Assembly: GCA_951812925.1 (NCBI GenBank)
Contig: OX638371.1
Coordinates: 82,655,697-82,719,696 of the forward strand
Source of the DNA: Calliopum simillimum
Lineage: Eukaryota > Arthropoda > Insecta > Diptera > Lauxaniidae
Length of the DNA stretch: 64,000 nt
Direction: 5' to 3'
Below are positions 843 to 63,225 of the stretch, piece by piece; the stretch's first letter is position 1, and the number at the start of each line of letters is the position of its first letter. A program made the translations under genes and the position numbers. The notes beneath the pieces were generated by a model, which was given only the letters and a program-made list of their open reading frames with translations, did no database searches and was not told the origin of the DNA.

Positions 843-890
843 ATCTTCTCTATCCCATTGCGATCTTAGTTGTTTCACATATTCCTGAAG
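843..890 (-). CDS. Micro-exon, 48 nt (LQEYVKQLRSQWDRED), last one seen
   Basis: Acceptor TATTTCTAG, donor GTAAGTTTTC. Paralogue of 15957-16004. The strong donor means another exon must follow to the left, within the first 840 bases or outside the window; I could not identify it. Confidence 0.7.
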
Positions 891-3800
891 CTAGAAATAT
901 ATACATAGATTTTGATTATTTTTTTAGCAGAGAAAGTAAGTATTCAGTTTATTGAATAGTTTTCATGAGAACAACGTCATAAAAATGGTACTTAAGAGGT
1001 GTCTCAAAAAGAAATTTATCAGGAATGTTCTCAATTCCTATTTCGATCCGAATCGGAATTGTATCAATCTTAAGGTGCTCTGCGTTTCGATTTTGAACAC
1101 CATATCAGAATTACGTTTTAGAAAGACAAATTAAAACCAGAAGCCAATTTTTGCTAGAACAAAAGTTTTGGCCTAAGGTCATATCAATTATTATCCGCAA
1201 TAAACAGGCCTGTTCCGTAATCTGCGTGGTTTTAATTATTTTTCACTTAGGAGGCTTTTTGATGAAAATGGTGAGTCACACTATAAAAAGTACAAGAATC
1301 TTTTTCGTGAAGAATTACAGGTTCTACATATATATAATATTGATTTGTATTTACTGAAAAGTAACTGTTTCGGAAATATTGGATAAAGTCGAATTTGTCG
1401 ACTTTTTGCGGTTTTTTAAGAATATTTCCTAAATGGTTACTTATTGTTAATGCAAATAAATGTTCTTTGTAGAACCTGTAATTCTCCATAAAAAAGATTC
1501 TAATACTTTTTATCGTATGACTCACCATTTTCATCGAAAAGCCTCCTAAATGAAAAGTAATTGAAACCACACGGATTACGGAACAGGCCTGAAAATTTAC
1601 ATTTTTTAAAAGGGTCTCATTTTGGCGCTTTGCTAACTATAACTACGGTTAAGAAGTAAAACTAAGTAAGTGTATAAGAATTGGTAAGCGCTTAGTGAGT
1701 TTTACCTCTTAACGGAGGATTTAATGTAATAATTTCAACTAAAAAAGATCAGACGTTAATAAAATATTCAGATCTTCAACTTTGCAAGTACTTTTCTTCA
1801 ATACTTTAAACAACTATTACAAAATTCCATATACTTAGTAAGTAAATATAATGATGTTGCATTGAAAACTTACATCTTGATAATTTGATACCTGTCCTAT
1901 ACCTTGCTGAACATCATTTGGCTATAAATATATAAACAGATATTGATTATTTTTGTTGTAGAAAAGGTAGGTATTCTGGTTATTGAATAGTTTTTGTAAG
2001 TCGTAAAAATGATACATAACAGCTGTTTCAAAAAAAAATATTTCAGGAGTGTTCTCAATTCCGATTTGGTGAAACAAATGGTTCATTATCAAAACCTCTT
2101 GTAGTTTATTACTTAATTTTATGTATGTATTCTCTTTTAACTCCTAGGAGAAGCATATGGCTAATATGAGACTTTTCCATTTGTTGCGATCCCTTGCGAT
2201 GACTTTGATCTCTTGCCATGACTTTCCCAATTCTTGTATTTCCTTTTCCAGCGACCTTTTCCAGTTGGTTTTGGGTCTACCACGTCCTCTACTGTTTTGT
2301 CGATTCTATTCAAGAGCCTGGCGACAAACTTAACTGTGTGATTTCCGGAGAGTGTGACCAATCCATCTCCATTTGCGCAGCTTGACCTCGATTGCTATAG
2401 CCCTCTGATTGCATTTTTGATGTAGCTCGGCATTTGATATAGTGCGAGGCCACCAAACCTTTAGTATACGCCTTAAGCATTTGTTGACGAATACTTGCAG
2501 CTTGTTTGTTAGTTGTTCAGTAACAAGCCATGTTTCGCACCAATATAACAAAACCGATTTCACATTTGAATCAAAAATGCGCACTTTCGATTTGGTGGAT
2601 GTAACTGAAGAAGACCATATTCTGTTCAGTTGGGCCAATGCGCCTTTTGCTTTTGCTATTCTTGAGTTGATATCCTCTTTTGTTTCACCATCCATGGAGA
2701 TAATGCTGCCTAAATACGTGAAGTTATCGACGTTTTCGATGTCATCACTGCCAACTCTAAACGTGATGTCCTTCCTTTTGTGATTCCAAGACAAGGTCTT
2801 CAATTTTGCTTTGCATATCTGAGTGTTTGGACGATACGAGGCAAATGTCGTCAGTGTAGTCGAGATCTTAAACTTCAACTTAATTTCCGGCGGCTCAGTA
2901 TTGATTTTCCACCCATGGAAGTTTTTAAGAATTTTTCATAGATTTTTTTGTTGTTCTTGACGCAAAAAAGTTTGACCCGGCCTAATATACATACTAAATG
3001 AAACTATTGCACACTGGACTATATAGATTACAACAAATATGAGTCATAAAGCATGACGAACATAAAAAACTTATAGCACACTTACCGGTCCACAAGGTCC
3101 AAGTGTTTCTGGTTCTTCACATTCTGGCTAAAAATTTTAAAAAAAGAATAGTTTATATAGAAATTCACAGATTGACGGTGACACGGCGGTGAAATGGCGC
3201 TTTCGATCTAAACATGAGTGCTCAGTAGAAATTCTTATAAATAGGTATTCTTTGGGGTTTTCTGAATACTGTGGAAAAAAAATTTTGAAAATCCGTCCGG
3301 CCGTTTTTGAACAATTGTATTTTGAGAAATTTACTTAAATTTTCACATGGAACAAAAAAAACCTAAAAAATAAAACCAAAAAAAAAAAACAGATAAAACA
3401 GATAAAAATTTTGACGTATTTTTTAATGCTTAATCCTTAAAGTGCAAACAGCATCATTTTTAGCCATTTTTGAAGTTATATAACAACTTAGGATAGTTTT
3501 TGGCAATGAATCTTGATGCGGTATTTGAAAGTACTTGTTTTGGTCTTCAAAACCCATATATAATTATATCAAAATCTTTCTATATCTCTGAAATATCTTG
3601 AACTAAATTAACGAAAAACCATGTTTTTTGCGGTTTTTCAACTTCTTTGGCTAGGATTTCCGAAAAAAAAAAATATCGTTATAATTCAAAGCGGGCTTTA
3701 GGGACAAAAACTAGTGCTTTAAAATTTGATATCAAGATTTATGGTTAGAAACTGAGTTGTTATATAACTTCATAAATAGCTAAAAATAGTGTTTTTTCCA

Positions 3801-6800
3801 CTTTTAGGTTAGGTGAGATATCCTGAGTTCTGATAAGTTAACGCAATTCCAATACATCTAAAATAACTATTCTGCTTTTGTTTGTTTGTTTTATTTTTTA
3901 GATTTTTTTCCTTTTGTATGGAAATTTTAGTGAAATTTTCAAAACAAGATTTTTCAAAAACGGCCCGACAAATTATTTTAATTTTTTTCCACAGTGAAAA
4001 AAAAAAAAAAATTATGTATCGAGATTTCCGGTAATGTACGGTAGAGTAAAATAACGCAAAATTTTGGGTAAAAAACGTGGTTTTTGGCGATATACGAAAT
4101 TAAGCGTTTTTCATTTTTTACTCGACATGAGGGGGGCTTAAATGAAAAAAACATCAAAGTCAATTTATCTTTCATCAAGGAATTTGCTTGAGTTTTTTCA
4201 CAATTTTTGGACCTGTTATGTGACCGTAATGATCGATTTAAATTTTTTTAACCCATTCCCTCATCGTGTCCCACATTCGGTTTTTCTGAATTTTACGTGA
4301 GTATATTTAGAAAGGTACCCCTACTTCTTCTGAAATGTGTGCTCTCGCGTGTATTATCGGAAATCTTGTTTTTCACAAAAATTTCAGGTAAAAGTAATTC
4401 CTGACAGCCCCTCAATGGGATATACTCATATGTATATTATAAACTGTTTATAAATAACTATGTTGAAATAAGAATAAAGGAGAAAAAAAGCTCATAGATT
4501 TTGCCTAACATTTAAATACTCTGGTTACAAATATTACTTACCGGAGGTTCTGTATATGTTGCATGCACTCTTGGAGAACCCTTATAGTAAAGGATAATAC
4601 ATGAAATAAAAAACAATTTATTACAATGTTCAACGAATTTAAGACTTTTGATTTTATTTGATTCAACCGACTTAAGCACATTATTTATTATTATTTCAAT
4701 TGAGGAGTTGCGTCCAAGAACGCCCTTAGTCGTCTAGGGAATTTTTGCACCCATTGGTTTTTGAAAAGTTTGGGCCCTCAACTACGAGTATATGTGTACA
4801 TAATTGCAATTTTCAATCCTAATCACAAAATGCTGTAGAGAAATATTTATATGACGCTTTAGCGAATAGTACGACGAAATGCCATTCTTCGACTTATGAA
4901 GCTCTTGCACGCAATGCCTCAATTGTTTGATATAGCATTTGGAAGGATTATGTTGGAACATAGGAGTGACGATACTAAATTTCAAATCTGAAAGAAAAAG
5001 TCTATCCAGCAGATTTTTTTGCATGCTTACAAAAAAAATAGTAAAGGTGTTACATTTGGCCTGGCCAAACATTAAATACCCTACACTGCAGTATTTTGAA
5101 AATGTTGCTTATATGGGAGGTGTCACGCCCTTTTGTCCAAGTTCACCCAGTTTTTTCTCAGAGCGTGCATTTATAGTTTTTAGTGTCGAAATTCAGTTGA
5201 GTTATCTCAAAAAACGTTTTAAGTATAGCATTTTAAAGCTTTTGCTTATACAAAAGGTGTCACGCTCACTTGTCCGAATCCGCCCAGTTTTTGCTTAGAG
5301 CTTCCGCTAATAATTCGTAGTATTTAAGTGTATTTTAGTTGAATTGTTGTGAAAAATACTCCTTAAGTTGCATTTTGAATATATTTTTTATATGGGCGGT
5401 AGGCGTGTCCGTGTCCGCACCAAATTTCATTGAATTATCATGGTTAGTTTTCCCGTAAAAAATATTTTCACGCACAGCCAGCCAGACGGACATGGCTATA
5501 CCGACTTAGGAGGTGAAGCTGATCAATAATATATATACTTTTCTATATCTGCCACGCCTCCTTCTCTGCGTTATAAACGGAAGGACAAAGTGAATATACC
5601 CTGGGTGTAGGGTATAAAAAGAATTATTGTTATTATTCATAAATTATCTATAAATTATTCGTTGAGATAAGAATAAGGGAGAAAAAAGCTCATACATTTA
5701 AGCTAACATAATAAATAAAAAAATATTTCTTACTCGTGCAGGAGATTGCGTAAATGTTGGACGCACTCTTGGAGAACACTAATGGTTAATGATAAAACAT
5801 GAAATAAAAAACAATTACAAAACAATTACACTGTACAACAAATTTTAGACTTTTGATTTTATTGGAGTTCGGACAAGGTAATTATTATTCCTTGCTATTG
5901 GCATAATTGGACTGCATTTACAAAATTTTTCCATCACGTCTCAGTTTTGAATTAAAATGGCAAATCAAGACTCATGACTTGCATCCGCACAAAACTAAAT
6001 TAATAAATTTCGTCAGAATTTGAAAAAAAAAATGTCAAACGATGCAGAAAATACCAAAAATTTCAAATTTGCGACCCAATCCTTAAGCTTTTTTTGCCAA
6101 AATAAAGCCGTTATAATAATTGGGCACAAAACTGCGATGAGTTTTTTTTATTTTATATTGGGGGTTATCGTGAATTAATATTCCAGTCTGAGTAAAATTA
6201 CCCCGGAATATTGATTTAACGCTTTGGAACCGGCTGCGACAATACATGTATATAAATTGGGATATGAGGAATTCTCAAAAATTGTGGAATTCTACAGTTT
6301 TTGAGGCACATTCACCAAACTTGGTGGAGAGGTCACTTTTTATATTAGAATCAAAAATTGGAAGGGTGCTTGTCAAAAAAAAAAAAGTAAAAAAAGTTAC
6401 GCATATATATATGAAGCAAAACACGTCAAGTGTACCAGCTGAAAATTTTTTTGTCTCCGATTTCGCTCAAATTTGGCAATATAGTAGTCCTAATATACAA
6501 AGACAATATTCCGGGAGGATTTGGTCCTAGTACTATTAATTGTTAAAATACAGGGTGTTGAAGTTGGCGTTTTTAGTGATTTTCATGAAAAGGTGTTTTT
6601 TCAAAAATTTAGAGCTTACACCAAAGTTTGTAAAGTAACTTGTCCCATTCATTTTTAAATGTTCTTTTTATAAAAAAATATTACATGGTGAAAAAAATTT
6701 TTTTTCACCGAAATATTTTAAACTTAAAAATACTTTTGAATTTTTTTTAAAAAAAAACCCCTCTTAAATTTTTTTTAAAAGTACTTCAAATTAAAGCATA

Positions 6801-9800
6801 ATTTAAAAGCTTTAAAATGATGTGTGACTCAAGATGGTATTCGGTCGTTGGATGTGAGTTTTTGGCTTTTAAACGCCCACAGCAGGCAAAACTCTTTGTT
6901 TACTCAAGAGGAAGGCATCTTACGAAAAAAGCGTTTAAAAGCCAAAAACTCTCATCCAACGACCGAATACCATCTTGAGTCACACATCATTTTAAAGCTT
7001 TTAAATTATGCTTTAATTTGAAGTACTTTTAAAAAAAATTTAAGGGGGGTTTTTTTTTAAAAAAAATTCAAAAGTATTTTTAAGTTTAAAATATTTCGGT
7101 GAAAAAAAATTTTTTTCACCATGTAATATTTTTTTATAAAAAGAACATTTAAAAATGAATGGGACAAGTTACTTTACAAACTTTGGTGTAAGCTCTAAAT
7201 TTTTGAAAAAACGCCTTTTCATGAAAATCACTAAAAACGCCAACTTCAACACCCTGTATTTTAACAATTAATGGTACTAGGACCAAATCCTCCCGGAATA
7301 TTGTTTTTGTATATCAGGACTACTATATTGCCAAATTTGAGCAAAATCGGAGACAAAAAAATTTTCAGCTGGTACACTTGACGTGTTTTGCTTCATATAT
7401 ATATGCGTAACTTTTTTTACTTTTTTTTTTTTGACAAGCACCCTTCCAATTTTTGATTCTTATATAAAAAGTGACCTCTCCACCAAGTTTGGTGAATGTG
7501 CCTCAAAAACTGTAGAATTCCACAATTTTTGAGAATTCCTCATATATTGTCCCAGCCGGATCGAAAGGGTTAAGCAAGATTCATCTAACTAAAAAAAGAT
7601 AGTTTTTGATTCCTTAGTATATTTTCTCAACAAAACGGGCATTCAAGAAGATCTGTCGGATCGACTTAATTTTTTTTTTTCAGATTTGAAATTTTTCCCA
7701 TCGTTTGACAATTTTTCTTGTAAGTTCTGACTTAAAAATTTTTAATTTATTTTTTTGTGGGTGTAAGTCGTGAGTTTTGATTTGCCATTTTATCTGAAAA
7801 CTGAGACTTGACAGAAAATTTTTGTAAATGCAGTCTTAGTATGTCAATAGCAAGGAATAATAATTAAGTACATAGTCGGTACTCAGATATTTTTTTGCAG
7901 TGTTATCAATGAATTATGTACATAGTGCCGCTCAAATGCTTTTCAACTAAAATCAATTTCGAAGAAATACCTAAATATATGCAACGATATTCCTGGATTT
8001 AGTTGAATGCCATTTTAATTAGCATTCTATTATTTAAAAAAACCCCAAAATATTATTCCTCTACCTTACAACAACAACAAAATTGGTGCCCAAGCAAAAC
8101 CAACCATTTTTCCTCCCCAAGGGAAAAAGAAGTGCTTCAAAAACCCTTCTGAAGTGCATGTTTTTCACCAATAAGCGCTTCCGCTCCATAAGAACTATTA
8201 TTTTTTTTTAATATTGCATGTCATATAATGTAAGCGAGAAAAAGCTTACCGTAGCCTTACCATAAAGGGATTTTTGAAGCGCTTATTTGTAATGCAGCGT
8301 AAGCGTTTTTTCAATAAAATTAAAAAAAAAAAAGAAAACAACTGGCCGCACCAGGATTTGAATCCACTACCGTCTGCGTGATAGATAGAAACAGATTATA
8401 TTTACTTACATTTACCAACTCTAGACTGTTACACCAATGAGCGATGATATGAAGAGCTTTTATATTTGTATATTAAGCAAATGTTGTCCAAACAAAATTT
8501 GACATACAAATGCTCCTACAGCCTCACATAGAATCATTGTGTAATCAATTTCAATTCAATGAAGCAAAAGTAAATAAATAAGAGAAAGGAAAATAGAAAA
8601 GTGAAATAAAAAAAAAATTTAACAAATAATATTTTAATGAAAAAAAAAAAAAGAAAAAAAAAAAAAAAGAAAAAAAAAATCACCCGGGCAAGGTTCGAAC
8701 CCATGTTGTTCTTACTGAAGCCTTATACAAAATCATTGTGAAAGTGCTTCTAAATTTCTATGGGGACAAGCACTTTTGAAGTACGCTGATATAGTACTTA
8801 TAGTACATGCCCATAAAATACGAGCCAAAAGCTATTTAGGGCATTATAATGATCATACAAAACAAATTTAACCTTCGTGGATCCAATTTTAATCCCTTTG
8901 TAAATATGAGTGATAGTTTTCTAATTTTTTTAATAGCAACGATTTTTAAAAAAATTCTATCAGGCATGTTCTCAATTTCGATTTTGATCGTAATCGGAAT
9001 GGAATCAATCTTAAGGTGCTGTGCAATTCGAAAATACAAATGGAATCGGAATTTCATTGCAATAAATAAAATTATCTACTGTTTCCAACCCGATTCACTG
9101 AATTGGTGGTTCAATTTCAAAACGCAGAGCACCTTAAGATTGATTACATTCCGATTCCGATCAAAATTGGAATAAAAAAAGATGCCTGTATAAGTTTTGT
9201 AACCAGCCTTCAACTGAATTGCATCTCTAATTTCTTTATCATCTGCTTTAAATCTTTACCTGATAATCATCAACGACCGTTTTTGCAAGACATCTTTTTC
9301 CAGCTTTGTGAACTTGGCACCCAAGATATAAAAAAACCAAAATATTTTTTTACGTAATTTAACCGCGTAGTTTAATCGTTTTCGAGATATCGAGGTTTAA
9401 AACTGAAAACGAAGTTTTCTTTGCAATTATTTATTACGTTTGTAGTTCAAATAATTCTACAAATGATTTTCTACAGCTTCAAACGGTTGTAATAGATGGG
9501 TTCTCACAAACATGTATATATGGCTCAAAATCACCAAGTTGGCCGATTCTAAGATTAATTTTTTGACAAAGTAAGTATGTCACAAATATGTCCATTACTT
9601 GCGCATAGCATTTTCTTATCTAGTCAGTAACTTTGAATTTTTTAAAATAAATATAAAATCGAAAGGTGTAAATCATTAAATGGAAGTAAATGGAATCGAT
9701 TTTACCATAGCCCAGCTGAAAGATTGGCTTTTCAGCTAAGGAAAGTATGATTTTAGTTGCAATGCATTTGAGTGGCACTGTATATATGTGTGTATTTATG

Positions 9801-12800
9801 TAAAAATAAAATACTGACTGTATGGCTCTTATGGGCTTCGAAATAATTTAACCAATTTGAACTAGCCCAATGTGCACAAAAACGGATGAGGATCCGTTTC
9901 GAACCCGTTACGAGTTCATAAAGGTATAAAAAACGTAATCCGCGGTAACGGATCCATTTCGAACCCGAAACGTACATCAAAAACGAATTCAAAATGCTGT
10001 GTTTAAATAAAAAAAAAATAACATTTTGAAGCGCTTATTAGCGATTAAAAAAAAAAATAAAAAGAAAAAAAAGGAAGAAAAATAAAGGGCAAAAATCCAC
10101 CTCTGGTAGGATTCGAACATGGGTAAATCCGTTTCGAATCCGTAAATACTTCAAATACGAACTCAAAACGGATTTGCTTTAATTAATTTTAATGATGATA
10201 AAAAAATTATTTTTGATTTGTTTTTTTTTTTTTTGTTTTTATCATTTTATTTTATAACGTACGATTTTTTGTAAACTTTTCAAATTCTGTTTGAAGAAAC
10301 GTTTTTGATTCCAAATTTTGAGTATGATATTATTTTTTATCAAAAGAAGGGAAGAGAAAGAACACAAAATACTTATAAAAAAACAACAGAAATTTGTTCA
10401 ATATACGAACTTTAAATCTCAACATCAGATAAGTCTACATCAGACAAGTCTGCATCATATCGGTCAATAGCCTAGTTGTCTAACATCTCGTGTATGAATA
10501 GTGATTCCCCTGGAGCCTAAGTTCGCCTCTCGGTCGGGCTAGAATTTTTTTAATTAAAAATAAGCGCTTCACCATTTTTCTTCTTTTTTTTTATAAGCAG
10601 CATTAACATTATTAAAAGCGAATCCGTTTTTAATTCGTTTTTGATGTACGTTACAAGTTCGAAACGGATCCATAAAAGTGGAAAAAACGATTCCCTTTTT
10701 TTTTGGAATCTCGCCCGCAAACAGATCAGTAACGTATACGAAACGGATAATAAGTTCGAAAATATGGACCCGTTACGGATCCGAAACGAGTCCGTTTGGC
10801 ACACTGGGAGTTTTTTTAAAGTTTTTTGTTATGGTGTGATCTTATGAAGGAAAAGTAGCATCCAAGTTCTGACCTTTAGGACTTTTTTTTAATTTTACTT
10901 ACATCGCGCGTTGCATTCCCAGACCCTTGAGAACTATATGATGTTTCATCCTATTGATAAAGACAGTTTAAGCAGATACACACAAAACTATATATATTCC
11001 GCAAAATTTCAAAACTTACGCCAGCAGCTGCGAAAAATTCATCAGTGTCTTCTTCTGTCGGCTGGAAATGATAAAGAAATTTAAAGTATAATAGGTTAAT
11101 AGGTATGCATAATTATTTTACTTAAAGTCGAATATAATAACATGTCGCCAGTAGTTAAAATTAAAGCAATTAGAAAGCTATATTCCATTGAATTTTCTTT
11201 TAAAAACATTTATCACTATCCTTTTGCTTGAAACATTGATGGTGGTGAGGCTCAAATTTCAAAATCATAAAGGTCGTGGAATATATACAATGTGTGCAGA
11301 AAAATCATTATGAAACTTTTTCAACCCTGCATATTGGCTTACAGAAATATAATTTTACATATGTTTATCACATATTCTGGCCTTTCTAGCGATTGTTTTG
11401 ATGACACAGACAATGATGATCTCAGTTCTTATCGTAGAGATTTCAATTACAGCAGTCAACTACATATGTCCGACCACGACTAACAAATCAGAGTAACAAA
11501 AATTCTTTTAAGAAGATAAATGTATCTTCTTGTATTACATTTAACCCGAATAAGAACCAGTTTCAGCATCTAAAATTTTTTAGTTTTCCACTGAACTGCC
11601 CAGTGTAATTAAAAATTTTAAGGAAAACTCTTTTTTTTTTGTTTTCTTTTACATAGAATTTCATATGTATTTTTTTCAATTACCTCATATTGAAGACCAT
11701 CATCATACAACGTCTGAAATTGATTAAAAAATTTAATTCAATATACATATTTTAAGTCATGTACATTAAAGTGGATCAACCACCATACCGGAAAAAAATA
11801 TTTTTGGTAATCCTCGACATCTTGTTAGACATTTCAAAAAAAATTTAGTCTCAGGTGAAAACTTTTAAAAGGCTTTATGTTTTGGCGTGCAAAAAAGGAA
11901 CCCTAGAATCAATGTCCTGAGACAGAGAGCAACCTTCTAATATAGACAAACAAGAAAGTATTTGCTCCAAGAAAAATTCCAACCTTATTAAAGTTTTCAC
12001 CAAAAACAAAGTATTTTATGAAATGTCTAATATGCTAGGCTATAGGCGAACTACAGTATGGACATTATGAGTAACGAAAACCGAGCTCAGATTCTTTTAG
12101 ATAGAACCCCAAATAAAAACTGAAATCAGTAATACGTCACTACAATGAGTTTACCTTGCGTAAAAGTGCAAAAAAAACACCAGCTAGTAAAATTATTCAT
12201 TCTGAAACTCACAACAGTGATTTTTGCACTTTTACGCAAGGATAACTCAGAATCCTGACATGATAGTAAAAAACGAAGTTTTGATTCGTAATAAGGAGAT
12301 CCAATTTTCAAGATTTACTTACAGGGTACGAATAATTTAGTGGATCCGTAACAAATGTTCCATTCACAGCCTGAGGAGGCTTTTGAGAAAAGAAAATATA
12401 GAGCAATTTAATATACATACAATATAATACAAAGGTATATTCTGCAATATTTCAAGACTTACGCAAGTAGGTGTGCTTTGAACAACCGGCTGAAAAATAT
12501 TTTTAAAAAATCTTTATTAAATTTGTACAAATAAAACAGAACAAATTTTGATAACACTCAAACCGTTTCTACGTAGGCTGCTATATATGTATATTACTGG
12601 CCTGGGCAACACTAATGTCAATAGCTTAAATCTGACAACACCATAATAAAGTTTGACATTTTTTAGCATAAACGTACTAAGTACATTTTGACGTACGACC
12701 ATCATTTGTGTTGTTTACAGTGACTTGAAAAAATCTATTTGGCAAAAAAATGGAATTAACTCGTGAACATTTTTCACAACTTTCGACGTGGATTATTACG

Positions 12801-48800: not shown

Positions 48801-51800
48801 ATATGTAATGCAAGAACTCAAGTACAAATTACATGTCAGATGAAAGGTAATAAATTGGGCTTTTATAATATGTTACTAAAATTATGCATTAATAATACAA
48901 TTTTCGGAAAAATAGTGCTTTGAAACAAAAAAAATGGTCAAAATTTCTGAAAATTTGCAATATCTCTAAAACCACCACTCAGATTAAAATTTTTTGCACA
49001 TCAATTTTGTAGCAAATTAACATATCTTACGTATGACTCTAATATCATTAAAATCCTTCCAGGGGTTCCCAACTTATAATAATTCTTATAAAAAATACAT
49101 CTCGATCTTCCGATGGCTATATCTCCGAAGGTAGGTCCGACAAGAACTTTTTGTTTTTGTTGTTGTTGTAACTAATTTTCAGAGCCCTACTTGAGCAAAA
49201 AGAAAAGAAAAGAAACAACAAAAGTTTTGAAAGTAAAATTTTTCCAAGTTTTAATTTTCCTTTGCTTTAATTTACAAAATATTTTGTGAGTAAAAATGGA
49301 ATAAGTCATACAAAAGTATAACAAATTTTTAAATTTATTATAAATGAAAGTGGAATAAGTCCATTCGGACCAAAAAAACTCAACTATTTTCTATTACACT
49401 TGTAAAAATTTTTACAGCATAACAAAATTTGATTAATTTACAGTGATAAACAATTAACACCGGTTTAATAACGCTTGCCAATATTTTTAAATTGATTTAA
49501 AAGCAAAATCTTCTACATAGCAGTAGATGAAAAAATGGACTTATTCCACTTTCAAAAAAATCATTTTTGTAAAAATGTTTTTCATGAAAAGTTCTTTTGG
49601 GTAATTTTTGATGAAATCGTGGTCTAACGAGTCTGTAATTTTTAGTATAAAAAGAGGACATATATAGCTAGCTATAACTACCATAAACTCAATTTTTCCC
49701 GAATTGGACTTATTCCACTTTCAAATAAACCCATTCAATTAGTTGTTATGTCTGCTTTTCTTAACTTGTTTTCAAACTCGAGAAACAAACCATAAAATAT
49801 AATGGTTTTCAAATCGATACATACCCAATTTAATGGTGGTGATGTATTCCTTAAAAATGATTCACGATAACCCATATTTGGAGCAACTTGTGGAGCCTAA
49901 AAAAGAAAAAAGTTGAAGTCAAGTAAAAAAAAAAAAAAAAATAGAAAAATTATAAATAAATTGCTGCTTCTCTCACTACACTTTAGTATATTACTTACTT
50001 GGTCCGGAATTGAGGTAATTCGTCCCTAAAATAAAAGAAGTACAAAAAAAAATTATTAATAAATTGCCATACCTTAAGTGTTATGCTGCTTATTTACAGA
50101 ATTATGTTCACTAATGGTGATTTCGTTTCTCAAAAAAATTCTGCATTTTTTCTGTTCTATTGTAAACAAGAACAGGTCAACATTTTACGAGTTCAGGTCA
50201 AAATTGAAAAAGTTCTGCATCTTTAGAGCGTAGAATTTTTAGTCAAGAAAAGAAAACGCTATAAGAGTTAGTTGCGATGCTGCTTTTTGGCATAGCCTGT
50301 TATGTAGTTCTAATTTTTAAAATAAGTTAAATCACAATCACTGATTAGGGTTTTTTACTATAGTTTAGGTAATATTCAAGCGATTAGTAGATTTTTCTGA
50401 GGAATAGACTCAAGCACACGAGCTTAGCAAATATTTCTGTTTACGTGGAAATGTAAACTCACCCGTCTTAAACCTTTATAAATAAAAGAAAAATGTATGT
50501 ACCCTTTGTGAATCTTTACAAAAATCCATGTTTTTTATCTAAACTATGGCAACCCTACCAATCTATCTTCAGCATTTGATACCTGACTGCCGAAAATATA
50601 GCCGTCTCGTTCGTTCTGATGTAAAAACCATTGCTGGCAATATTCGACCAGTTTTTTTGATCAACGAATATAGAAGAAAATTCTGACATTCGTTGAAAAT
50701 TAAGTACACGCGGAAGGTGGAGAATTTACTTAAAACTAAAAAACTTAAATATAATAAATTCTTAAAACCTAAGTAAACCTAAACTTAATTAAAAATAAAG
50801 GTGGGATTCTTAAGCTAACATTAAAGAAAAGTGTTTTGATTGTTCCAAGTGGAGCTAAGCAGTGTTTGTTTTTTATATATGCAATGTGTGTCGTGCAGTG
50901 AGCACGGTGAGACCATTCCATCTTCCTGGATCATCGTCTCCATCATCTCATCGTGTCCACTGCCACAGCACCAGGCTTTGCCATTCTCCGTAGAAGGCCA
51001 ATAGATTTGCATCTCCCGTCAAAAGGGTTCGCCATCTCCGCCTACAGTGTTCAACACAGGTATTGTTACCTTTGAAATTTTTAATATTTAGAAAGTCATA
51101 AAGAAAAAACAAGTTTGGTCCCCGACCAAACAATTCCAAAACTCTTTGCCAGAATGGTCAGAAGCCCATTCGTGACACATGAAACCAAATTTATTTAAAG
51201 TAAGTAGTAGGAATGAAAATTATTTGTTCAATTTAAGTCGATACTTTTTGTTATGGCTTAATATAGAGAAAATGGCATTGCTTGAAACGCTAAACCATTA
51301 CAAGCTGTCGACCTGAAACTTTATAGATTTATCTTTCTAAATTTTAAAATAACTTATTATGTCAACTCTTTCAAAACAGAATAAAGAATAAATGCATCAT
51401 TCTCGAGAACTAAAGCATGAAATAAAATGATTCTCAAATCGATACATACCCAACATGATGGTGGTGATGTGTTCTTTATTTCTGATCCAAATAACGCAGG
51501 ATAATTTGCAGGATAGCCAACTTGTTGTTCCTGAAATAAAAGTATTAAAAAAAACACAAAAAAAAAAAAAAAAATTATTAATAAATTGCAATGCCTTGCT
51601 CAGCTGCTTCTTTTACTACACTTTGGTATATCACTTACTTTATCACATGGAGTTTCTTCTTGGCTCTGTGATTCTTCTTGGCTCTGTGACTCGTCAGCGT
51701 TTAATCTCCTTAAAAGAGCTATTAAATTCACAAAATGAGATTTGAATATCAAATCAACTAAAGAAAAAGTTTAAACAGTATCGAGATAAGACTCACCATT

Positions 51801-53049
51801 AAGCGAAATGTTATCCTGAAAAAGAGAAGTTATGAAGCCAAATGAAATAATAAAAAAAAGTAAAAATCGACTATGTAAAAATAAGAATTCGTTTGCTTGT
51901 TTTTTACTTATGGACTCGGAAACTAACTAACCGATTTGAATAAAATTATCGCAGTATCTTCGTGTTACAACAAGCGGCTCCCGGAAATAACGCCAGAAAA
52001 TTCTACATAAAAAATTATAGCGTTATAGTCCGTGAGCTCTCGTGCAAAAAAAAGATTCATAAAAACAAAATTTTGAGAGTGGGGAAGGATAGTGGTATAA
52101 CGTTTACCGTTCAAGCTATCACAAATTCATGGATTTCAGTTTATAAAGAAATGTATTACCATTACCTTGGTTTTCATACGAATCAAAAGTTTTTATTATG
52201 TCAAAAGTATAAAAAATGCTGTCGTACAAAAATCTTGAAGCGCTTGACGAATCGGACACGCCGAATATGCCAAAATTACGAAATAAAAGAAATTTATTAC
52301 CACAGAGCCAATTTTTGCAGAATTGGTCAATAAAAATATTCAAAATCAAGCGGTTACATTGTCGGATAATTTTATGGGGGGTCTTATTACACAGTGCATC
52401 ACAAAAAATGTCCCTGTTGTCTCATAGTGTTTTTCTGAAAGATAATAAAAAACTAGTAAGGGCGTAAATTTTGGCCTGGCCAAAAATAAATACCCTACAC
52501 TGCAGTATTTTGAAAATTTTGCTTATATGAGAGGTGCCACGCCCTCTTGTCCGAGTACACCCAGTTTTTGTTCAGAGCTTGCATTTATAGTTTTTAGTGT
52601 CAGAGTGAAATTTAGTTGGATTATCTCAAAAAACTTTTTCAGTATAGCATTTTGAAACTTTTGCTTATATGGGAGGTGCCACGCCCCCTTGTACGATTTC
52701 AACCAATTTTTGCTGAGAGCTTTCATTTATAATTTTTAGTGTCTGAGTCGAAGTTGGTTCGAATATCTCAAAAAACGCTTTCAGTATAGCGTTTTGAAGC
52801 TTTTGCTTGCATGGGAGGTGCCACGCCCTCTTGTCCGAATTCGCTCAGTTTTTTATCAGAGCTTGCGCTTACAATTTGTAGTACTTATGTGTATTGTGGT
52901 TGCATTGTCGTGAAAAATACTCCTAAAATTGCATTTTGAATATAATTTTTGTATGGGTGGTAGGCGAGCTAACTTTGACGACGGAGGCAGTGTGCCAAAT
53001 TTCATTGAATTATCTTGCTAAGTTTTCCCAAAAAGTGTATTTCAACACA

Positions 53050-53091
<42 letters not shown>

Positions 53092-56000
53092 CCCAGCCAG
53101 CCAGACAGACAGACGGACATGGCTATATCGACTCAGGAGGTGACGCTGATCAAGAATATATATACTTTTCTATATCTGCCACGCCTCCTTCTCTGCGTTA
53201 CAAACGGAAGGACAAAGTGAATATACCCTGGGTGTAGGGTATAATAAAGAGACACTTGAGGAGTGTTTTTTCAAAAGGGCTTATAACCAAAACGAGGCAA
53301 AAGTAATGTCATACACATTATTTGCATAATAATCGATTAGTGGATAAATCTGACTTTTTTAACTAAATGTAATTAATTTCAAGCCATCAGGTAAACTTTT
53401 CGTGAAAAAAGAACCCAATTTTATTTATTTATAACAAAGTATCAGGCAATTAATATTATGATACTACTTTTGCCTCGTTTTGGTTATAAGCCCTTTTGAA
53501 AAATAACTCCTCACTTATTGTACCGAATATATGTATCAGTGGTTTTTTTCATTTTATGGCACCTCTAAGTTTAAAGTTTGCATTTAATATGAAATTTAGA
53601 GATTTTTTGAAAAAAAAACCATCTGATTCTATACAGAAAAGTATTGCCTCTAGTCAAGTGAACCGTACTGTATATATCTCAATTTTAATTGAAAAATGGA
53701 TATTCTTGGTTTCGCAACTCGTCTTTTCAATTACAAAACGGTTGCCAATAGGCACATATTTAAAGAAAAAAATAAAGTTTAAGTAAAATAAGCAAAATGA
53801 AAAAAAAAAAAAAAAAAAAAATGCAACGCCTCACTACGCTGCTTCTTTTATTACACTTTATTATGTTACTTACTATGTTTTGCGGAGCTCCCGATCCTTC
53901 CGAACATGTGCCGGATTCACCAGTTTGGCCTCTGTTACCCATTAAGTCCAGCAAGTAGTCTATGAAGGTCACAAAATGAGATTTAAATATCAAGCAACTG
54001 AAAAAAAGGCTTCGACATTATCGGGATAAAACTCACCACGAATTGCATTTCCACCGCCCTCCTGAAAAAGAGAAGTTAAATTCCAATGATATAATAAAAA
54101 AAATAAAAATTATTAATAAATTGAAATAGAATGCCAAGGTGCCGTTGCGTCATTGTTCCATCTGATAAGAAATGGTCGAAAGACATTATAGACGTCTGAA
54201 CACAACTTACATATCGTCGACCTTAATTCTAATACGATGTAAGTCAAAATTATCTACTATTCAGGAGCCGAAGAAAAGCGAAATCAAATAGATTCCTAAT
54301 TTATTTTTTTAAGCCTTATTTTGCGAAAATGGACGGGAAGCAAAAAAAATGTCATATGCATATCATATATATGCATATCTCGTGAGAAACCTGCCTTTTG
54401 TGGACTTATTCCACTTTCAAAAAAACCCATCCATGAAGAGATTTATTTTTCTTAATAAGCATCTGCTTTTACTGCAATTTTGTATAAAAACGATTTACAA
54501 ATGTACTTATATTACTTACTTGGTTATATAAAGGTACTTCTGAGTACCGGGTTCTTCCGGACATGATAGTGGAAGTGATGTTTCAGCTTGGTGCAACAAA
54601 AGGTTAACTATTAAAATCACAAAATGATATCCAGTAGATCGAACCGTTTATATTTCATTAGCACTGAAATGTAAAAAAAAAAATTGCATTAAATCTTTGT
54701 TTTTACGAAATACTAAAAGCGATAGTTAACTTCTTGTTACACCAAGGATTCTAAGTGCTTTACATAATGTATGCATAAGAACATATACCATTGATAAGGA
54801 AAATTATATTTTTTGAATGACACAAATTTTGTTTAAATGGTTTTTATCTATACACGAAGGTTTTCGAAGGTTACCCGTAGGTTTCATAATGAAAATAAAG
54901 AATGCCAAGGTATACTAGAGCGTAAACATGCATGGCGTACTATCGACAAGCCTTATCTAGTTCATTCCCCTGAACATCCGAAGGTTTCTTAGTCAAAATG
55001 TAGAATGTTTAGGTTCTCGACACATCCTAACTTGAACGTTAAAAAAATACGGATTTTTGCTTATTCTGAAGTCTGGTAATTTGTTTACATGAAACCTGAA
55101 AGAATTATTACATTTTATGTATTTCATTTCGAATTAAACCAGTATCTGTTTGAAGTTATCGTGATTTAATCAAATAAATTTGCATAAGTTGTCTTAACTT
55201 AACTTACCTCGTCATCATCTTGACAGAACGACTATTTTTATTAATAAAATAAAATAAAATAAAATAAATTATTTATTTAAAGAATATTGAAGTGGAATAA
55301 TCTAGTAAGTGATAAGCCGCCAAAAAGGAGTTAACCGACACAATTTCAGATTTTGTTTTTTTTTTTTAAATTCTGAAAGAGGGTTCTTAAAAGTGGACAT
55401 TTTTTAGGTCGTAATTGAACAGAAACCACATCAAGCTGAGATTTTACTTATAACAACGTTTCGCAATCTCTTAGTGACCTTAAAGAAAATTGAAAAAAGT
55501 TTCAGCTCACTTTTTTGAAACCCACTTTGAGATTTTTGAGCGTAATCGTGGCAATTAAGGCAAAAAAGTTTTTTCTGTAAGATTTTGATGAGAGATATTT
55601 CATTTTCTTCAGAAATTTACGCTGATCTTAAATTCGAAAGAATTTTTTATTTTTTTTTTTTCTTTCTTTCAAATCAGCGTAAGTTCCTGAAGAAAATGAA
55701 GTATCTCCCATCAAAATCCTTTAGAAAACCAATTTGGCGCGGACGTGCGATGAGCTATGTGAGAACCCAGACCTTTTTTTTCTTGTAGCGCAGTGTTATT
55801 CAAGTGAACCTTCTACGGTATAATTTGGTTTTTTGTCGTTTAGTCTTTTTGACGGCTTGGATTCGATATACTGAAGTATGTATGTATGTACATAATGGGT
55901 TTGAATGTATATAAAAATATGAGGTCCATAAAGTGAGCCATACAGGTGTGACAAATTTCGATGTTTTCTGGTTGGGAATTTGGAGCAATTTTCGAGCTTT

Positions 56001-59000
56001 CTGGGGAATTTTTCATTTTCCGGAAAAGCGGAAAAATTGTTCTGTATGGCTTACTTAATTTTTTTTTTTTCAGCCAGACGAATCCGCAGGCAGAGTAAGC
56101 GATGAAATGCTTTAACGCAGAAATTTCGAGCTGACCTTGAATGAAGTGTTTTCCGGAAAACCTTAAATTTCCCCGGAAAATCCCAAAAAATTTTTAAGGG
56201 CTTGCTTTTTTTTCAGCCAAACGAACCCATGAGAATTTGGCGATCATATCATTTGACTCATGAATTTCGAGCTCGAACATCAAAAATGAAAAGTGTTTTC
56301 CAGAAAATCCCAAAAAACATTTTTTTATGGCGGTGCGATGACATAATCCCCACGGACATAGTCCCCATTTCAAAAGTGGGTGTTATGTCCGCAAATTATT
56401 GGATACATAAAGCAAGCCTTAAAAAATTTTTTTGGGAATTTTCGGGGAAATTTAAGGTTTTCCGGAAAACACTTCATTCAAGGTCAGCTTAAAACCAGCT
56501 CGAAGTTTCTGCGTTAAGAGATGTCATCGCTTACTCTTCCCGCGGATTCGTCTGGCTGAAAAAATACACTTAGCCATAAAAAATATCTTTTAAGATTTTC
56601 CGGGAAAAAAAAAAAATTTCTTCGCATCAATTAGTGAACTTAATTGACATGGAAGGTTCTTGCCCAAAACAGGTGACATTAGCGAGTGCCGAAACAATAG
56701 CGGCATTACTTTGTTTTCAAAAAAGCGAAAGACTTGATTCGTCCATTCATAACCCTGCTCTCTTTTCTACCCGTATCAACTTTTCATTTTTGGTTTTGAT
56801 TTGAGAGATGATTTTATCTTCAAAACGGGAGTGAAACAACTTTTAACAATAAATTACCAAAACTGAAAAGCAGTCTTGGTTTTGACGACTATCGTGAGCA
56901 AGACCAAGACACTAGCAGTCTTGGTCTTGGTCTTGCAAAAATATCAGCGTCTTCGTCTCGCAAAATTACCAAGACCAAGAACAAGACTCAAGACCAAGAA
57001 TAATTTTGCTCATCACAACAAATGAGTAAACTGAACTTGGAGATCTTGTTCTAGAATCACAAAATGACGACCATCTTCAGTTATTTTCATCAAAGCGAAA
57101 GCTCAGGAAATTCAAGAATCGGAAAAATCATAGAGGGAGAAAAAAAAATCATAAGGTAGCAACGTCTCATTCTGGGACTACAGTGGCTCACAGCTTATTT
57201 CGTGCAGTAATATTTTTTTAACTTCAAAACACTATATCTTTAAAACGAATACATATATCATTAAATTTTGAACGCAGGCTAAGACGGGCATGTCTATTGT
57301 TCATAATGTGTAAAAGAAAATCCACAAAAATTGTCACAGCTTATTTCGTGCAGATGCTTATTTTCCCTTTGGAGTCAGCGTTTCGCGTTATTTAACGGGA
57401 ATTTCTTTTTCTATGTTCTCTATGTAGTATTCGCAACCAAATGCAGCCTTTTTTTATTTTGATCTTTTACATGTGAGGGTAAAAAAGTGCATTTTGCAGA
57501 AATGCGTCGTCTAGCAGCGAAAATCAGTGATAAGTCATCTTAAGAACGGCCAATCCCTGCGCAAAGCTGCTCAATATGTTAGTTTGAGTCCCGCCTACAA
57601 TGCAAAGCACAATTGAAAGCTTCGTGCAAGTAAATCGGGTCCAAAATAAGGGTTAAATTTCGTAAAATAAAATTTTTAATCCCGCTGACGATCAGTTTTT
57701 TATCTACAAAATTAAAACAACTCACATTATGGACTCCAAAAATAGTCACAAGCTTGCAACATGAACTAAGCAATCCGCAAAGTGCAAAAACTGTCCACTT
57801 CGTGAACCAAGACCACAATTTTAAAGCCTAAGTAGCCCTTCATAAGCAAAAAAAGCCAACATAGCTTACATTCTCTTTGACATCGAGCTCAGTATTAGCA
57901 CGCCCACAAAGATTCGCACTTCTAAAACAGCATCATAATCATGGATGAGTCTAAATTTAACATATTTGAACCTGATGACATGGCATACGTATGGTGGAAA
58001 CGCAATACTGAGCTGAATAGCAAAAGCTAGTAGACTTTTTGGGATGTGTTTTTGCTTATGAAAGATTACTTGGGCTTTGAAGCTGTGGTCGCGGGACACG
58101 CAGCCACCAGTTTTTGCACTGTACGAGTTACTTAGTTCTTGATGTATGTCCTTAATAGTTTTTGGAGCCAATAATGTGGGATTGTATTGATTTTGTGGAC
58201 AATTAATGAATCGTCAGTGGGATTAAAAATTTTGTTTTACGAAATTTAACCCTTATTTTGGACCCGATTTACATGCACGAAGCTTTCAATTGTGCTTTGC
58301 ATTGTATGCGGGACTCAAACTAACATATTGAGCAGCTTTGCGCAGGGATTGGCCGTTCTTAAGATGACTTATCACCGATTTTCGCTGCTAGACGACCCAT
58401 TTCTGCAAAATGCACTTTTAACCCTCACATGTAGAAGATCAAAATAAAAAAAGGCTGCATTTGGTTACGAATACTACATAGAGAACATAGGAAAAGAAAT
58501 TCCTGTTAAATAACGCGAAACACCGGTTTCAAAGGGAAATTAAGTATCTGCACGAAATAAGCTGTGACATAAATTTCTCCTACTCAATCGATTTTTTCCG
58601 CCTTGAGCGTATCTGAATCAATTTTTGTGGATTTTCTTTTACACATTATGAACAATAGACATGCCCGTCTTTGCCTGCGTTCAAAATTTAATGATATATG
58701 CATTCGTTTTAAAGATATAGTGTTTTGAAGTTAAAAAAATATTACTGCACGAAATAAGCTGAGAGCCACTGTATACTCTTTCTAGAATTTATATAGGAAT
58801 ACATACATACATACATAATCAGTGACGTTAGATAATATATTTCTTAACTATTGAATAACTTACTCTATTCAAACAGTCTTGTGTCCTAAAATTGTCTCCC
58901 TCTAGCCATTGCTGTTATAACAAAATACGAACGTCAAATTATATAATTTTCTGAGTACTGATAAACTTACTGATGATGGTTCGTCTTCACCGTGGTAAAA

Positions 59001-62000
59001 TTCAGATGCGGACATACTTCCTGCCCAACTGGGGATATTATTGGGCCCACCACTACACTGATTGCTTACGTTTCCTTCGTCGAAATGGAATTCATCGGGG
59101 GCAGTACCATCTTCATCTGAACGTTGACAGTAAACAACTGTAGGTCCATGGATAATAACTGTTTGGCGGCACTGTTGGAAGAATAAATGCGTGTTTTGGG
59201 TGAAATTTCAATGTTGTTTGCATTAAGCCCACAACTATTAAATTTTTTATAAATAATTTTTTTTTTTACATATGTATAACAAGGGCCTTCAGAGAATGGT
59301 ATCAAATTGTCGACAGCAAAATGTCACATTCGAAGTAATGAACTATTTACATGGAATTCGAACCTGATCTCAATCAACGTTGATATTCAGATGATCGAGG
59401 TTTATTTTTTTTTGGATGCTTTTGATATTGTATTTATTATACACACAAGTAATTCCGCATAGACGCATACTTAAAGTTCACTCCATCTCAATTACCAAAA
59501 TGTTACCAAAAGTCAATCACAATCGTGAATTAAACTAGTCATATGTAGATTGATAGATCTCATTCTACGGAATGCACCCAGCGAGCTTGCCACCAAGTTC
59601 ATAAGAGGAGTAAAAAAGGCAATAGAAGACACGCTAGATCAAAAGCCAGCTGGAAAAGGTAGTTGGAGTAAAATACTTAAAATACAGGAAATCCCTGTTG
59701 ATACATCAAAGTAATTGGATGGAAACTATTTTTGCTTTGCTTCTTTGCCTATTTAGCGTTACAGAAGTATATACGAACTAATAAATTGTTAAAATATTCG
59801 TTCAATTTTAATTGAATGATCTTACCTGTCCACTACAATTAATTATAACATTACGCGGTTGTTCGTCTTCTTCCTCTGGCGATTCATCTTCTCTATAAGT
59901 TTGGAAATTTGCCTCTTCGATTGATTCTTCATCCTCACACGGTGCTTGAGTGATCGCCCTCATGACAGGTGTATTTTCTATACTCCGTATACTCCGTGGA
60001 AGAGAAGGAGTCTGGCGGGAAAGCTATTTAAAGATATTGTAGAATGTTACACATGCTTACGTATGTTTGAAAATATGAACTTATAAACAAGGGCAATTGA
60101 AAAAAAAGCTGAACGCTCCATATTTTGAATGTGATAGTATATAACCTGCCTCGTCCATAATTCCAAACGTTCCCTGAAAGTGATGATTCAGAGAGTTTTC
60201 TGTGGCTTAAATAAAATAAAATCACATTGATAATGTAGACGCGTCCAACTTAATAAGGAAATCCTTTCTAAAATGCGTAACATTCATAAAGCCTGGATAG
60301 TCTGATAGTCCTTTAAATCAATGTGCAAACGTAAAAATTTTTGTTGGCGATATGTAGATTAAACAATCAACAGGTGATTTATTTGTTTGTCTTTATCTTC
60401 TCTATATTTCTTTACTTTAGAGTCTAACCAGAGTAACATAAACCTATCCATTCTAAAAGGATTTTATGATAATTAGTTTAGCTTTATCCCTTTTTTTGAC
60501 ATTGATAAGTCTTAAACTAGGTCTACTGTTAATTGCTCGGAATGCCAAAATGAAAAGTAAATCTCTAGAATAATTATTATCCCAAATTTTGAAGTAAAAA
60601 CAAACAAAAATTATCCTTACCTGTGAGCAATGATCGAAACACCTGTTATAAGCGTCTTGGTAACTACTCCTGTCCGACGTCAAGCATAAAGCAGAAGAAG
60701 TTGGCTATTTAAAGAAAATTTAGTTCAAAAATTTAAAAATTTATTGCATATGAATAAAATAAGCTTAGCTTGTCAAAAAGTATAAACTGACTGAAAACAA
60801 AAATAATTGATACAAAAAAATAATAAAAATTATGTATGCTTCAATGAGTTATTAAGGTATTTTCGGAGACGAGTGTAAATGGCGCGCAGAGGTCTAGAAT
60901 GCGATTCTAGAAGGTCATAAGTCTCTCCTGGTTATCGTCATACTATTATACAAAATACAACGTCTGTCTATCTGTCAGTCTGTATCTCCATAACTCGAGA
61001 ACCATTTGTCTGATTTGCATGATTTTTTTGTTTCTTTCTTACGGAGGTATTTTACATCGCAGAGTTCTAAGATAAATTTTATTTCAAAATACCCTTGGTT
61101 TCGAAATTCGTAAATCAGTTATACGATTTTAATAATTTTTTATACGTACTTTCAAATTATATTACCTCGGCTTTGCCCGTGATATTAAAAATTTCTAGCA
61201 CCGAGAGAAATAACATTCAACACAGCGATTACATTCTGAGACTGCTTGGAAAAGATGAGAATAGGAACATATAAACGTAATGGGCATCGGGAACGGCCAA
61301 ACGAAGTCGATCCCGTGCAACTACCCCACTAGAAAAAAGTTCAGGTTGAGATCCGATTCGGATCAGGCTTGCCTGAAGAATGATCAGGAACGTGTTAGGA
61401 ACATCACACCTCATATGGAACGGACCTGATCCGGATTCCATAAAGTTTTCAGGAACGGATCAGAATATTTCAGGTCCTCATCAGAAAAGTAATATATTCA
61501 TTATTTAGGATCGGATCATATCCATATAAATTAATTTTAATTTCGTCCGGCCACAAAACGCTTTCCTAAAATATTTTGTAGCAGTTTTTATGATATAAAC
61601 ATAACAACCACCTGAAATGTGTTTGAGAAAACTTTCTGTGGTCGTTTTGATATGGAATATTTATTTAGTTCTGCAAATTTGATGCGATACTGATTTAAAC
61701 AACGCACTTGGACCGTGTTAAGATTTTTGGTATCAGATCTTGATGAGGAACTGATCAGATGGCCGTATTAAGGAATACCTGATCCAGATCTGATCCTTAT
61801 CCGGAATTCCTAAACTAATTTCTTGTCGGGTAGTTTTGAATAAAAAAATATCAGCTTCTATGTCTTCGACCCGTTGAATCCTAATCTGGTTAACATTTTT
61901 AAAAATCAAAATGGCGTACAATTTTCTCATAAAATCACAACAAAATTGTCGCTAGGAGAGTTTTTCAGGAGTCTGATTCCAAATTTGTGATCGGCTTTTT

Positions 62001-63225: not shown

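Follow-up and report, generated by a model that had tools for sequence, protein, structure and literature searches.

A minus-strand array of duplicated phase-0 micro-exon cassettes that may form one very long, partly diversified gene

The minus strand of the window, that is, the whole 64-kb stretch of DNA analyzed here, carries an excess of candidate micro-exons, and we propose with moderate confidence that they belong to one very long gene (or a short run of like genes) made of symmetric phase-0 cassettes, which were duplicated and some of which were diversified by selection. This confidence is reduced because a codon-level signal of selection comes from a single cassette family and because the exon chain was heavily curated. 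One gene is likely, rather than a few neighbors. A preliminary description of this DNA had proposed about 50 exons and 853 codons on one strand, in good agreement with our curated model of 48 exons, all on the minus strand, which extends from 843 to 63225 and amounts to 2,556 nt or 852 codons. With a donor just past 843 and an acceptor ahead of 63225, neither position is a gene end, and the locus exceeds the window on both sides. Two points are added to what had been observed before: cassettes were duplicated along with the introns beside them, and some exons diverged faster than those introns.

Exons of the curated model have a median length of 46.5 nt (range 18-201). The size range of 18-100 nt initially given for the array accommodates 46 of the 48, the two others being 186 and 201 nt long. 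Likewise, the initial view that nearly all exons are symmetric and in phase 0 stands for the 40 exons that are 0->0 (a multiple of three) and for the 44 that start in phase 0, but not for eight asymmetric exons. These form four linked pairs, in which a D1 exon (19-25 nt, 0->1) is joined by a D2 exon (80-98 nt, 1->0) completing the codon begun in D1; the sum of each pair is a multiple of three and the frame is kept jointly. The suggestion that any cassette could be skipped in frame was therefore too broad: it applies to 40 of the 48 exons, whereas D1 and D2 of a pair could be skipped in frame only as a unit. No stop codon occurs across the 852 codons, which is partly owed to how candidates were selected, and 29 of the 48 exons use a GTAAGT donor, a hexamer that the minus strand contains 40 times, donors having been partly chosen by score. 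Exon boundaries were refined by comparison with duplicated copies. For the 14 exons devoid of a clear duplicate, splice score and frame are the support, complemented at 28322 by a weak flank match, and some of these exons may be wrong. Curation also replaced a split exon (58991-59020 and 59070-59171) by 58971-59171, which reads through as one 201-nt exon, and the end of a D2 copy at 24399 by 24396; weak candidates at 30649, 32223, 50559, 55208 and 246-290, among others, were excluded before the final count.

The excess of micro-exons was measured with approximate insect splice matrices not trained on this genome. Candidates were counted by summed splice score if they were non-overlapping, phase-0, symmetric, frame-open and 15-130 nt long. 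At a summed score of 11.5, the 64-kb window contains 47 candidates on the minus strand and 15 on the plus strand; the reversed (uncomplemented) sequence contains 25 and 18, and 20 shuffles a mean of 15.4 with a maximum of 26. About a third of the candidates at this loose threshold are expected by chance. At 14.5, the counts are 28 and 5 in the window, 7 and 6 in the reversed sequence, and a mean of 3.4 (maximum 9) in 20 shuffles, which bears out the one-strand array reported at the outset. Model exons reach the two scores in 40 and 27 of the 48 cases, respectively. Phase-aware chaining (penalty 15) gives a score of 220.9 on the minus strand (51 exons, 36 of them 0->0) and 95.7 on the plus strand (24 exons, three 0->0), against a mean of 33.9 and a maximum of 41.9 in eight shuffles (8-20 exons, 0-4 of them 0->0). 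Chance or base composition as the source of the exons is ruled out by these chain scores and by the candidate counts. At penalty 13 the chain contains 72 exons, among which 33 correspond exactly to the curated model, five have other ends, and 34 are absent from the model, having been discarded by hand as weak sites or stretches within mobile elements; reciprocally, 10 of the 48 curated exons are absent from this chain.

Self-comparison and flank searches place about 34 of the 48 exons in duplicated cassettes with recognizable flanking introns, assigned to families A, B, C, D1-D2-D3, E1-E2, F, G and H. Each copy brings along its splice sites and the flanking intron sequence, and where homologous flanks determine the boundaries, copies differ in length by multiples of three (D1, 19/19/19/25 nt; D2, 98/89/80/86 nt; D3, 60/72/81 nt; E1, 45/51 nt). 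Exons listed below lie on the minus strand and, apart from D1 and D2, are 0->0. The exon at the upper end of the window, 63208-63225 (family G, 18 nt, PCTPGR, splice scores 10.8/11.4), is a duplicate of 43536-43553 (18 nt, PCTPER). Next to it are exons that have no duplicate, namely 60621-60704 (84 nt, for which the chain favors an inner acceptor at 60669), the acidic exon 59826-60011 (186 nt), the longest exon of the model at 58971-59171 (201 nt), and 58864-58911 (48 nt), the last three supported by the chain and by splice score.

The D module is the most elaborate cassette. Its four D1-D2 copies lie at 54037-54061 (25 nt) and 53874-53959 (86 nt), 51797-51815 (19 nt) and 51639-51718 (80 nt), 26930-26948 (19 nt) and 26762-26850 (89 nt), and 24560-24578 (19 nt) and 24396-24493 (98 nt, with a weak donor). 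D3 occurs in three copies, 51450-51530 (81 nt, C-end NTSPPSCW), 49825-49896 (72 nt, NTSPPLNW) and 24252-24311 (60 nt, NTSPSSCS), and in weaker ones: 46160-46237 is D3-like (78 nt, NTSAPPCN) with weak flank support and is absent from the chain. The 30-nt exon 28322-28351 has the EQQ start of D3 and an upstream flank 74-75% identical to D copies over 51-54 nt. Exon 49999-50025 (27 nt), identified by flank matches and splice scores, combines a D3-type acceptor side with a D2-type donor side, as if it were the product of recombination between cassettes. Moreover, a degenerate D cassette lies on the minus strand at 54456-54630, in which a D2-like part is recognizable and the D1 donor is not seen, and which suggests cassette decay.

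Other duplicated exons of this half are those of family C at 45598-45627 (30 nt) and 20497-20538 (42 nt), of family F at 42012-42053 and 40758-40799 (42 nt each), and of family E, in which E2 (35846-35911, 66 nt, with a weak acceptor scoring -1.3) and E1 (35684-35734, 51 nt) recur as E2 at 34978-35025 (48 nt) and E1 at 34853-34897 (45 nt). Among them are exons with no duplicate: 39678-39728 (51 nt; the chain favors a different acceptor), 30014-30043 (30 nt, with a match to an inverted repeat in the flank upstream), 29248-29271 (24 nt; splice score and frame), and the uncertain exons 33147-33203 (57 nt, modest splice scores) and 29149-29172 (24 nt), both absent from the chain.

Family A has four copies of 48 nt, A2b (17287-17334), A1b (15957-16004), A2 (1874-1921) and A1 (843-890, which may instead use an inner acceptor at 884 and which the donor follows directly), arranged in a manner that we read as a local duplication followed by duplication of a block of about 2 kb. 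The H2 exons 15110-15184 (75 nt) and 12323-12379 (57 nt) have their upstream intron in common, and that of 10903-10950 (48 nt) is 72% identical over 81 nt to that of 12323-12379. Similarly, the downstream intron of the H1 exon 12463-12489 (27 nt) is 71% identical over 70 nt (E 5e-5) to that of 11020-11061 (42 nt). The B exons 5734-5778 (45 nt, weak sites, absent from the chain) and 4542-4580 (39 nt) are duplicates of each other. Exons 13375-13401 (27 nt) and 11684-11713 (30 nt) rely on splice score and frame and 3086-3127 (42 nt) on the chain and splice score, all three being devoid of a duplicate, as is the uncertain exon 12213-12254 (42 nt), which overlaps a small inverted repeat.

This anatomy would result from growth in many rounds, in which a single cassette or a small block was copied along with the adjoining intron and the splice sites. 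Given a common phase, the gain, loss or skipping of a cassette would leave the frame intact, and duplication would supply spare cassettes, some of which selection could then rewrite. The choice of cassettes by splicing would be a further source of variety, and isoform diversity may exist.

The distribution of the families raises the question of a cluster of neighboring micro-exon genes of one family, with the chain spanning gene boundaries. We regard such a cluster as rather unlikely, though it fares best among the alternatives. Families C, D and G span 20-63 kb and families A and H 0.8-17 kb, the two halves being joined by short weak matches alone, and the longer exons (84, 186 and 201 nt) sit together at 58.9-60.7 kb, as could be expected of separate genes. 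Nevertheless, the model exons are all on one strand, and a scan of the window for signal-like ATG exons with a strong donor found none on the minus strand, three on the plus strand and none or one in each of six shuffles, a scan that is blind to first exons lacking a signal. If the start of the gene lies outside the window, no first exon encoding a signal peptide is expected inside it.

The predicted peptide of 852 residues contains 16 lysines, 49 arginines and 38 cysteines, with cysteines in 28 of the 48 exons, and a version of 851 residues is rich in S, P, E, D and Q. In the latter, cysteine amounts to 4.5%, compared with 2.5% in base-shuffled exons. Lysine is reduced to 1.9% from 6.4% in the shuffled exons, while arginine (9.3% in the shuffles) is better kept. 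The peptide falls on the disordered side of the charge-hydropathy line, and the product is probably a disordered chain. It has 12 N-glycosylation sequons where 7.4 are expected, an enrichment that is not clear since 5.4% of the shuffles reach 12.

Homology searches returned no relative. An earlier 756-residue version, which included four weak exons later excluded and was devoid of D1 and most D2 exons, had no Pfam family at E<=1 and no homologue at E<=10 among 4,440 word-sharing candidates, and a 243-residue stretch with two D1-D2 pairs had none at E<=10 among 178. Both versions were searched as joined exon peptides. These searches covered proteins of 0.55-1.75 times the query length (about 416-1323 and 134-425 residues), and a protein that evolves fast may have no words in common with its relatives; the length limit and the speed of change weaken the negative result. 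Arthropods are represented in the database: the best 120 of 6,400 matches of a transposase encoded in the window include named entries from a spider, flies and a copepod. For the final 852 residues, Pfam gave one chance-level match under the family cut-off (E 0.26) and the PDB one chance-level match (E 0.65), neither being meaningful, which rules out a known protein domain as the identity of the locus. Known structured RNAs are ruled out by the absence of any Rfam match at gathering score in the window, and tRNA genes were tested and ruled out as well. As no relative was found, the coding status of the locus rests on its anatomy and on its pattern of substitution.

As to function, a secreted product facing a fast-changing partner, such as an effector, a venom or salivary protein, or a reproductive protein, would be the most likely, and an effector role in particular is a guess by analogy. 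Fast-diverging patterns of this kind are familiar from effectors, venoms and reproductive proteins, which is why a secreted interaction protein is placed first and a structural extracellular protein is considered a serious rival. The latter would be of the glue, silk, cuticle or eggshell type, with disordered, cysteine-bearing cassettes turning over under loose constraint. The S/P/E/D-rich disordered composition, the enrichment and wide spread of cysteine among the exons, and the recurrence of little-changed F and G cassettes all fit such a protein. However, loose constraint would allow exons to diverge at most at the rate of introns, and A exons are several-fold above it. Silks usually carry simple sequence repeats, and the predicted peptide is devoid of repeats of that typical kind. 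Overall, we consider a structural protein unlikely.

The evidence for accelerated change is best in family A. In gapped alignments of A1 and A2, the flanks are 79-94% identical and the exons 52-64%; as unrelated sequence aligned with gaps yields 61-67%, the A exons are at chance level. Without gaps, A1 and A2 differ at 26 of 48 exon positions and 34 of 201 flank positions (Fisher p 3.8e-7), and the second A block at 23 of 48 and 31 of 191 (p 1.1e-5), two comparisons that are not independent because the block itself was duplicated. Read in the predicted frame, the two blocks have pN values of 0.61 and 0.57 and pS values of 0.24 and 0.12; their introns differ by 0.16-0.17. Both alternative frames are interrupted by stops, with pN at 0.46-0.58 and pS at 0.48-0.92. 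This codon pattern supports the predicted frame as well as selection for amino-acid change, for which family A is the one source of sequence evidence. After the block duplication, A exons changed little (4 of 48 and 1 of 48 positions). In sliding profiles of two A comparisons, identity falls within the limits set by the predicted splice junctions; a D comparison shows a clear drop at D2 and a slight one at D1.

The remaining families present a mixed picture. D1 exons differ, without gaps, at 13/19, 9/19 and 13/19 positions and their flanks at 34/108, 19/97 and 22/107, an excess in the exon with p of 0.004, 0.02 and 7e-5, respectively. Intron differences in family D are 0.11-0.24 and pN is 0.39-0.64; since pS is equally high (0.36-0.77) and the alignment is gappy, replacement of segments or misalignment accounts for the pattern as well as point selection does. 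E2 exons differ at 14 of 48 positions and their flanks at 20 of 162 (p 0.012), with pN and pS at 0.29 each. Conversely, G exons are kept better than their flanks (2 of 18 and 81 of 201 differences, p 0.02), and F exons are perhaps more conserved as well (2 of 42 and 31 of 190, p 0.054). Among 30 pairs of cassettes, the exon is less alike than either flank in 19, including three H2 pairs that are weak because most of their flanks score close to chance (z 0.2-2.6, a single one reaching 7.4). The 11 pairs in which the exon is not the least alike are both recent A pairs, B, C, one D2, three D3, E2, F and G. Cassettes therefore differ, some being rewritten and others kept. Following duplication, some exons would have been driven toward a different peptide while their introns drifted more slowly, as the nonsynonymous excess in A suggests. 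The same process could underlie the excess exon divergence observed in D1, D2 and E2, and one pair hints at it for H, whereas G and, less clearly, F stayed conserved.

Alternatively, exon divergence would be ordinary and the introns unusually alike, either homogenized by gene conversion or constrained by RNA structure related to splicing. Related intron flanks between tandem exons are expected in mutually exclusive arrays of the Dscam type, and synonymous change is raised along with nonsynonymous change in D and E2. In family A, however, pS is near intron divergence and pN several times higher, a sign of change in the protein more than of constraint on introns, and we find constrained or homogenized introns an improbable explanation. 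A decaying or non-coding locus, made of gene remnants with splice-like sites, is very improbable. The D2-like remnant at 54456-54630, the weak-donor D2 copy at 24396 and the remains of mobile elements inside introns are compatible with decay, which is at odds with 852 codons free of stops (in part a result of candidate selection), with length changes by triplets, and with the conservation of G and, at p 0.054, of F. Finally, chance splice-like sites in repeats have a negligible probability, for even though shuffles reach up to 26 candidates at 11.5 and nearly half of the chained exons (34/72) failed curation, the 47 candidates observed at that score, the 28 against a shuffle maximum of 9 at 14.5, the chain scores and the divergence profile locked to the exons contradict them.

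To our knowledge, micro-exon-rich, fast-evolving genes occur in few animal groups only, as families of shorter genes. According to excerpts of the articles cited, the coding region of schistosome micro-exon genes (MEGs) consists mainly of exons <=36 nt, mostly symmetric (PMC4671649, PMC8293314), as are 26 of the 33 micro-exons of MEGs 26-32 (PMC4671649); a tapeworm genome paper likewise names micro-exon genes (PMC7653826). As portrayed in these excerpts, MEGs resemble the predicted gene by a coding region of very small exons, most of them symmetric (here 40 of 48), whose skipping would not shift the frame, and also by products with unstructured hydrophilic parts, by being described as lineage-restricted and by a proposed role in host interaction. 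In contrast, exons <=36 nt make up 15 of the 48 here and 367 of 2,556 nt, or 14% of the coding bases, too few for strict membership, which is ruled out. MEGs also have a long 5' exon with a signal peptide and a long 3' exon. Our locus reaches at least 852 codons and has both gene ends outside the window, within which no signal-like first exon was found.

According to the excerpts, aphid bicycle genes average about 17 exons, phase 2 prevails almost throughout their internal exons, and many members carry a CYC motif, some homologues being devoid of it (PMC9168663). Like the locus, these genes are rich in small internal exons that almost all share one phase, and they have rapidly diverging proteins and, as far as the excerpts tell, no sequence homologues beyond their own group. 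The locus differs by its phase 0 (44 of 48 exon starts) and its exon number of at least about 48. There is no CYC motif in the 851- and 852-residue versions, and the bicycle gene-structure classifier, applied to the part of the gene inside the window with the published coefficients (PMC9168663, in part) and assumed 100-nt terminal exons, returns a logit of about -204. Membership is ruled out by phase, motif and classifier together. The likeness to MEGs and bicycle genes is hence one of architecture only, as had been judged at first sight.

Two further systems share features with the locus. Tandem duplicated exons with related introns and very many possible isoforms recall arrays of the Dscam type. 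The variable exons of Dscam are longer, mutually exclusive and encode parts of Ig domains, whereas most cassettes here are micro-exons and could be included together. In snake venom genes, accelerated exon change or switching of segments follows duplication (PMC2711939, PMC2474615, excerpts), with coding segments radically changed and faster than expected for proteins, as in the locus. Those are separate toxin genes, as opposed to duplicated cassettes in one locus without recognizable domain. No comparable gene was found for a fly in the portions of open-licence PMC articles that were searched.

A bolder interpretation, which is tentative and falls somewhat short of probable, is that of an independently evolved hypervariable gene of more than 62 kb, with some 50 or more interchangeable phase-0 cassettes duplicated along with their introns and peptides rewritten faster than the introns drift; through duplication of cassettes, selection and splicing, it would do within one gene what other organisms do with large families of separate effector or venom genes. 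If true, a giant phase-0 micro-exon gene outside the known groups would represent convergent use of one trick. Such a gene would easily be overlooked by ordinary annotation. The locus could allow a direct test of whether symmetric micro-exons speed the trial of new peptides, and the co-duplicated introns would provide an internal yardstick by which selection on cassettes could be measured without a second species.

Mobile elements are also found in the window. A stop-free transposase frame (25356-26549, plus strand) is situated within an intron and runs antisense to the gene; it matches Pfam DUF4817, its relatives are named DD41D transposase, and its best match is 98% identical, a Musca autumnalis protein being 86% identical over 82% of the length. 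Named relatives among the best 120 of 6,400 matches come from a spider, muscid flies and a copepod; elements of the transposase type move between species. A reading frame on the minus strand (2330-2935) carries Pfam DUF6451, while those at 22189-23001 and 14339-14803 on the plus strand have no Pfam match above cut-off; we take all three to be remains of non-LTR retrotransposons, which they resemble. Introns also contain long inverted repeats that are imperfect (65-85% identity in self-comparison) and reminiscent of foldback elements, at 5860-7889, 47805-49576, 57179-58773, 3268-3995, 12570-13305 and 62123-62962. Stretches 1-429 and 8116-8518 form an inverted pair, 81% identical and containing a tRNA-promoter-like stretch, which is possibly a SINE. 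Finally, a tandem array with a 142-bp unit in 2.6 copies extends from 52507 to 52882 and is related to 5014-5622.
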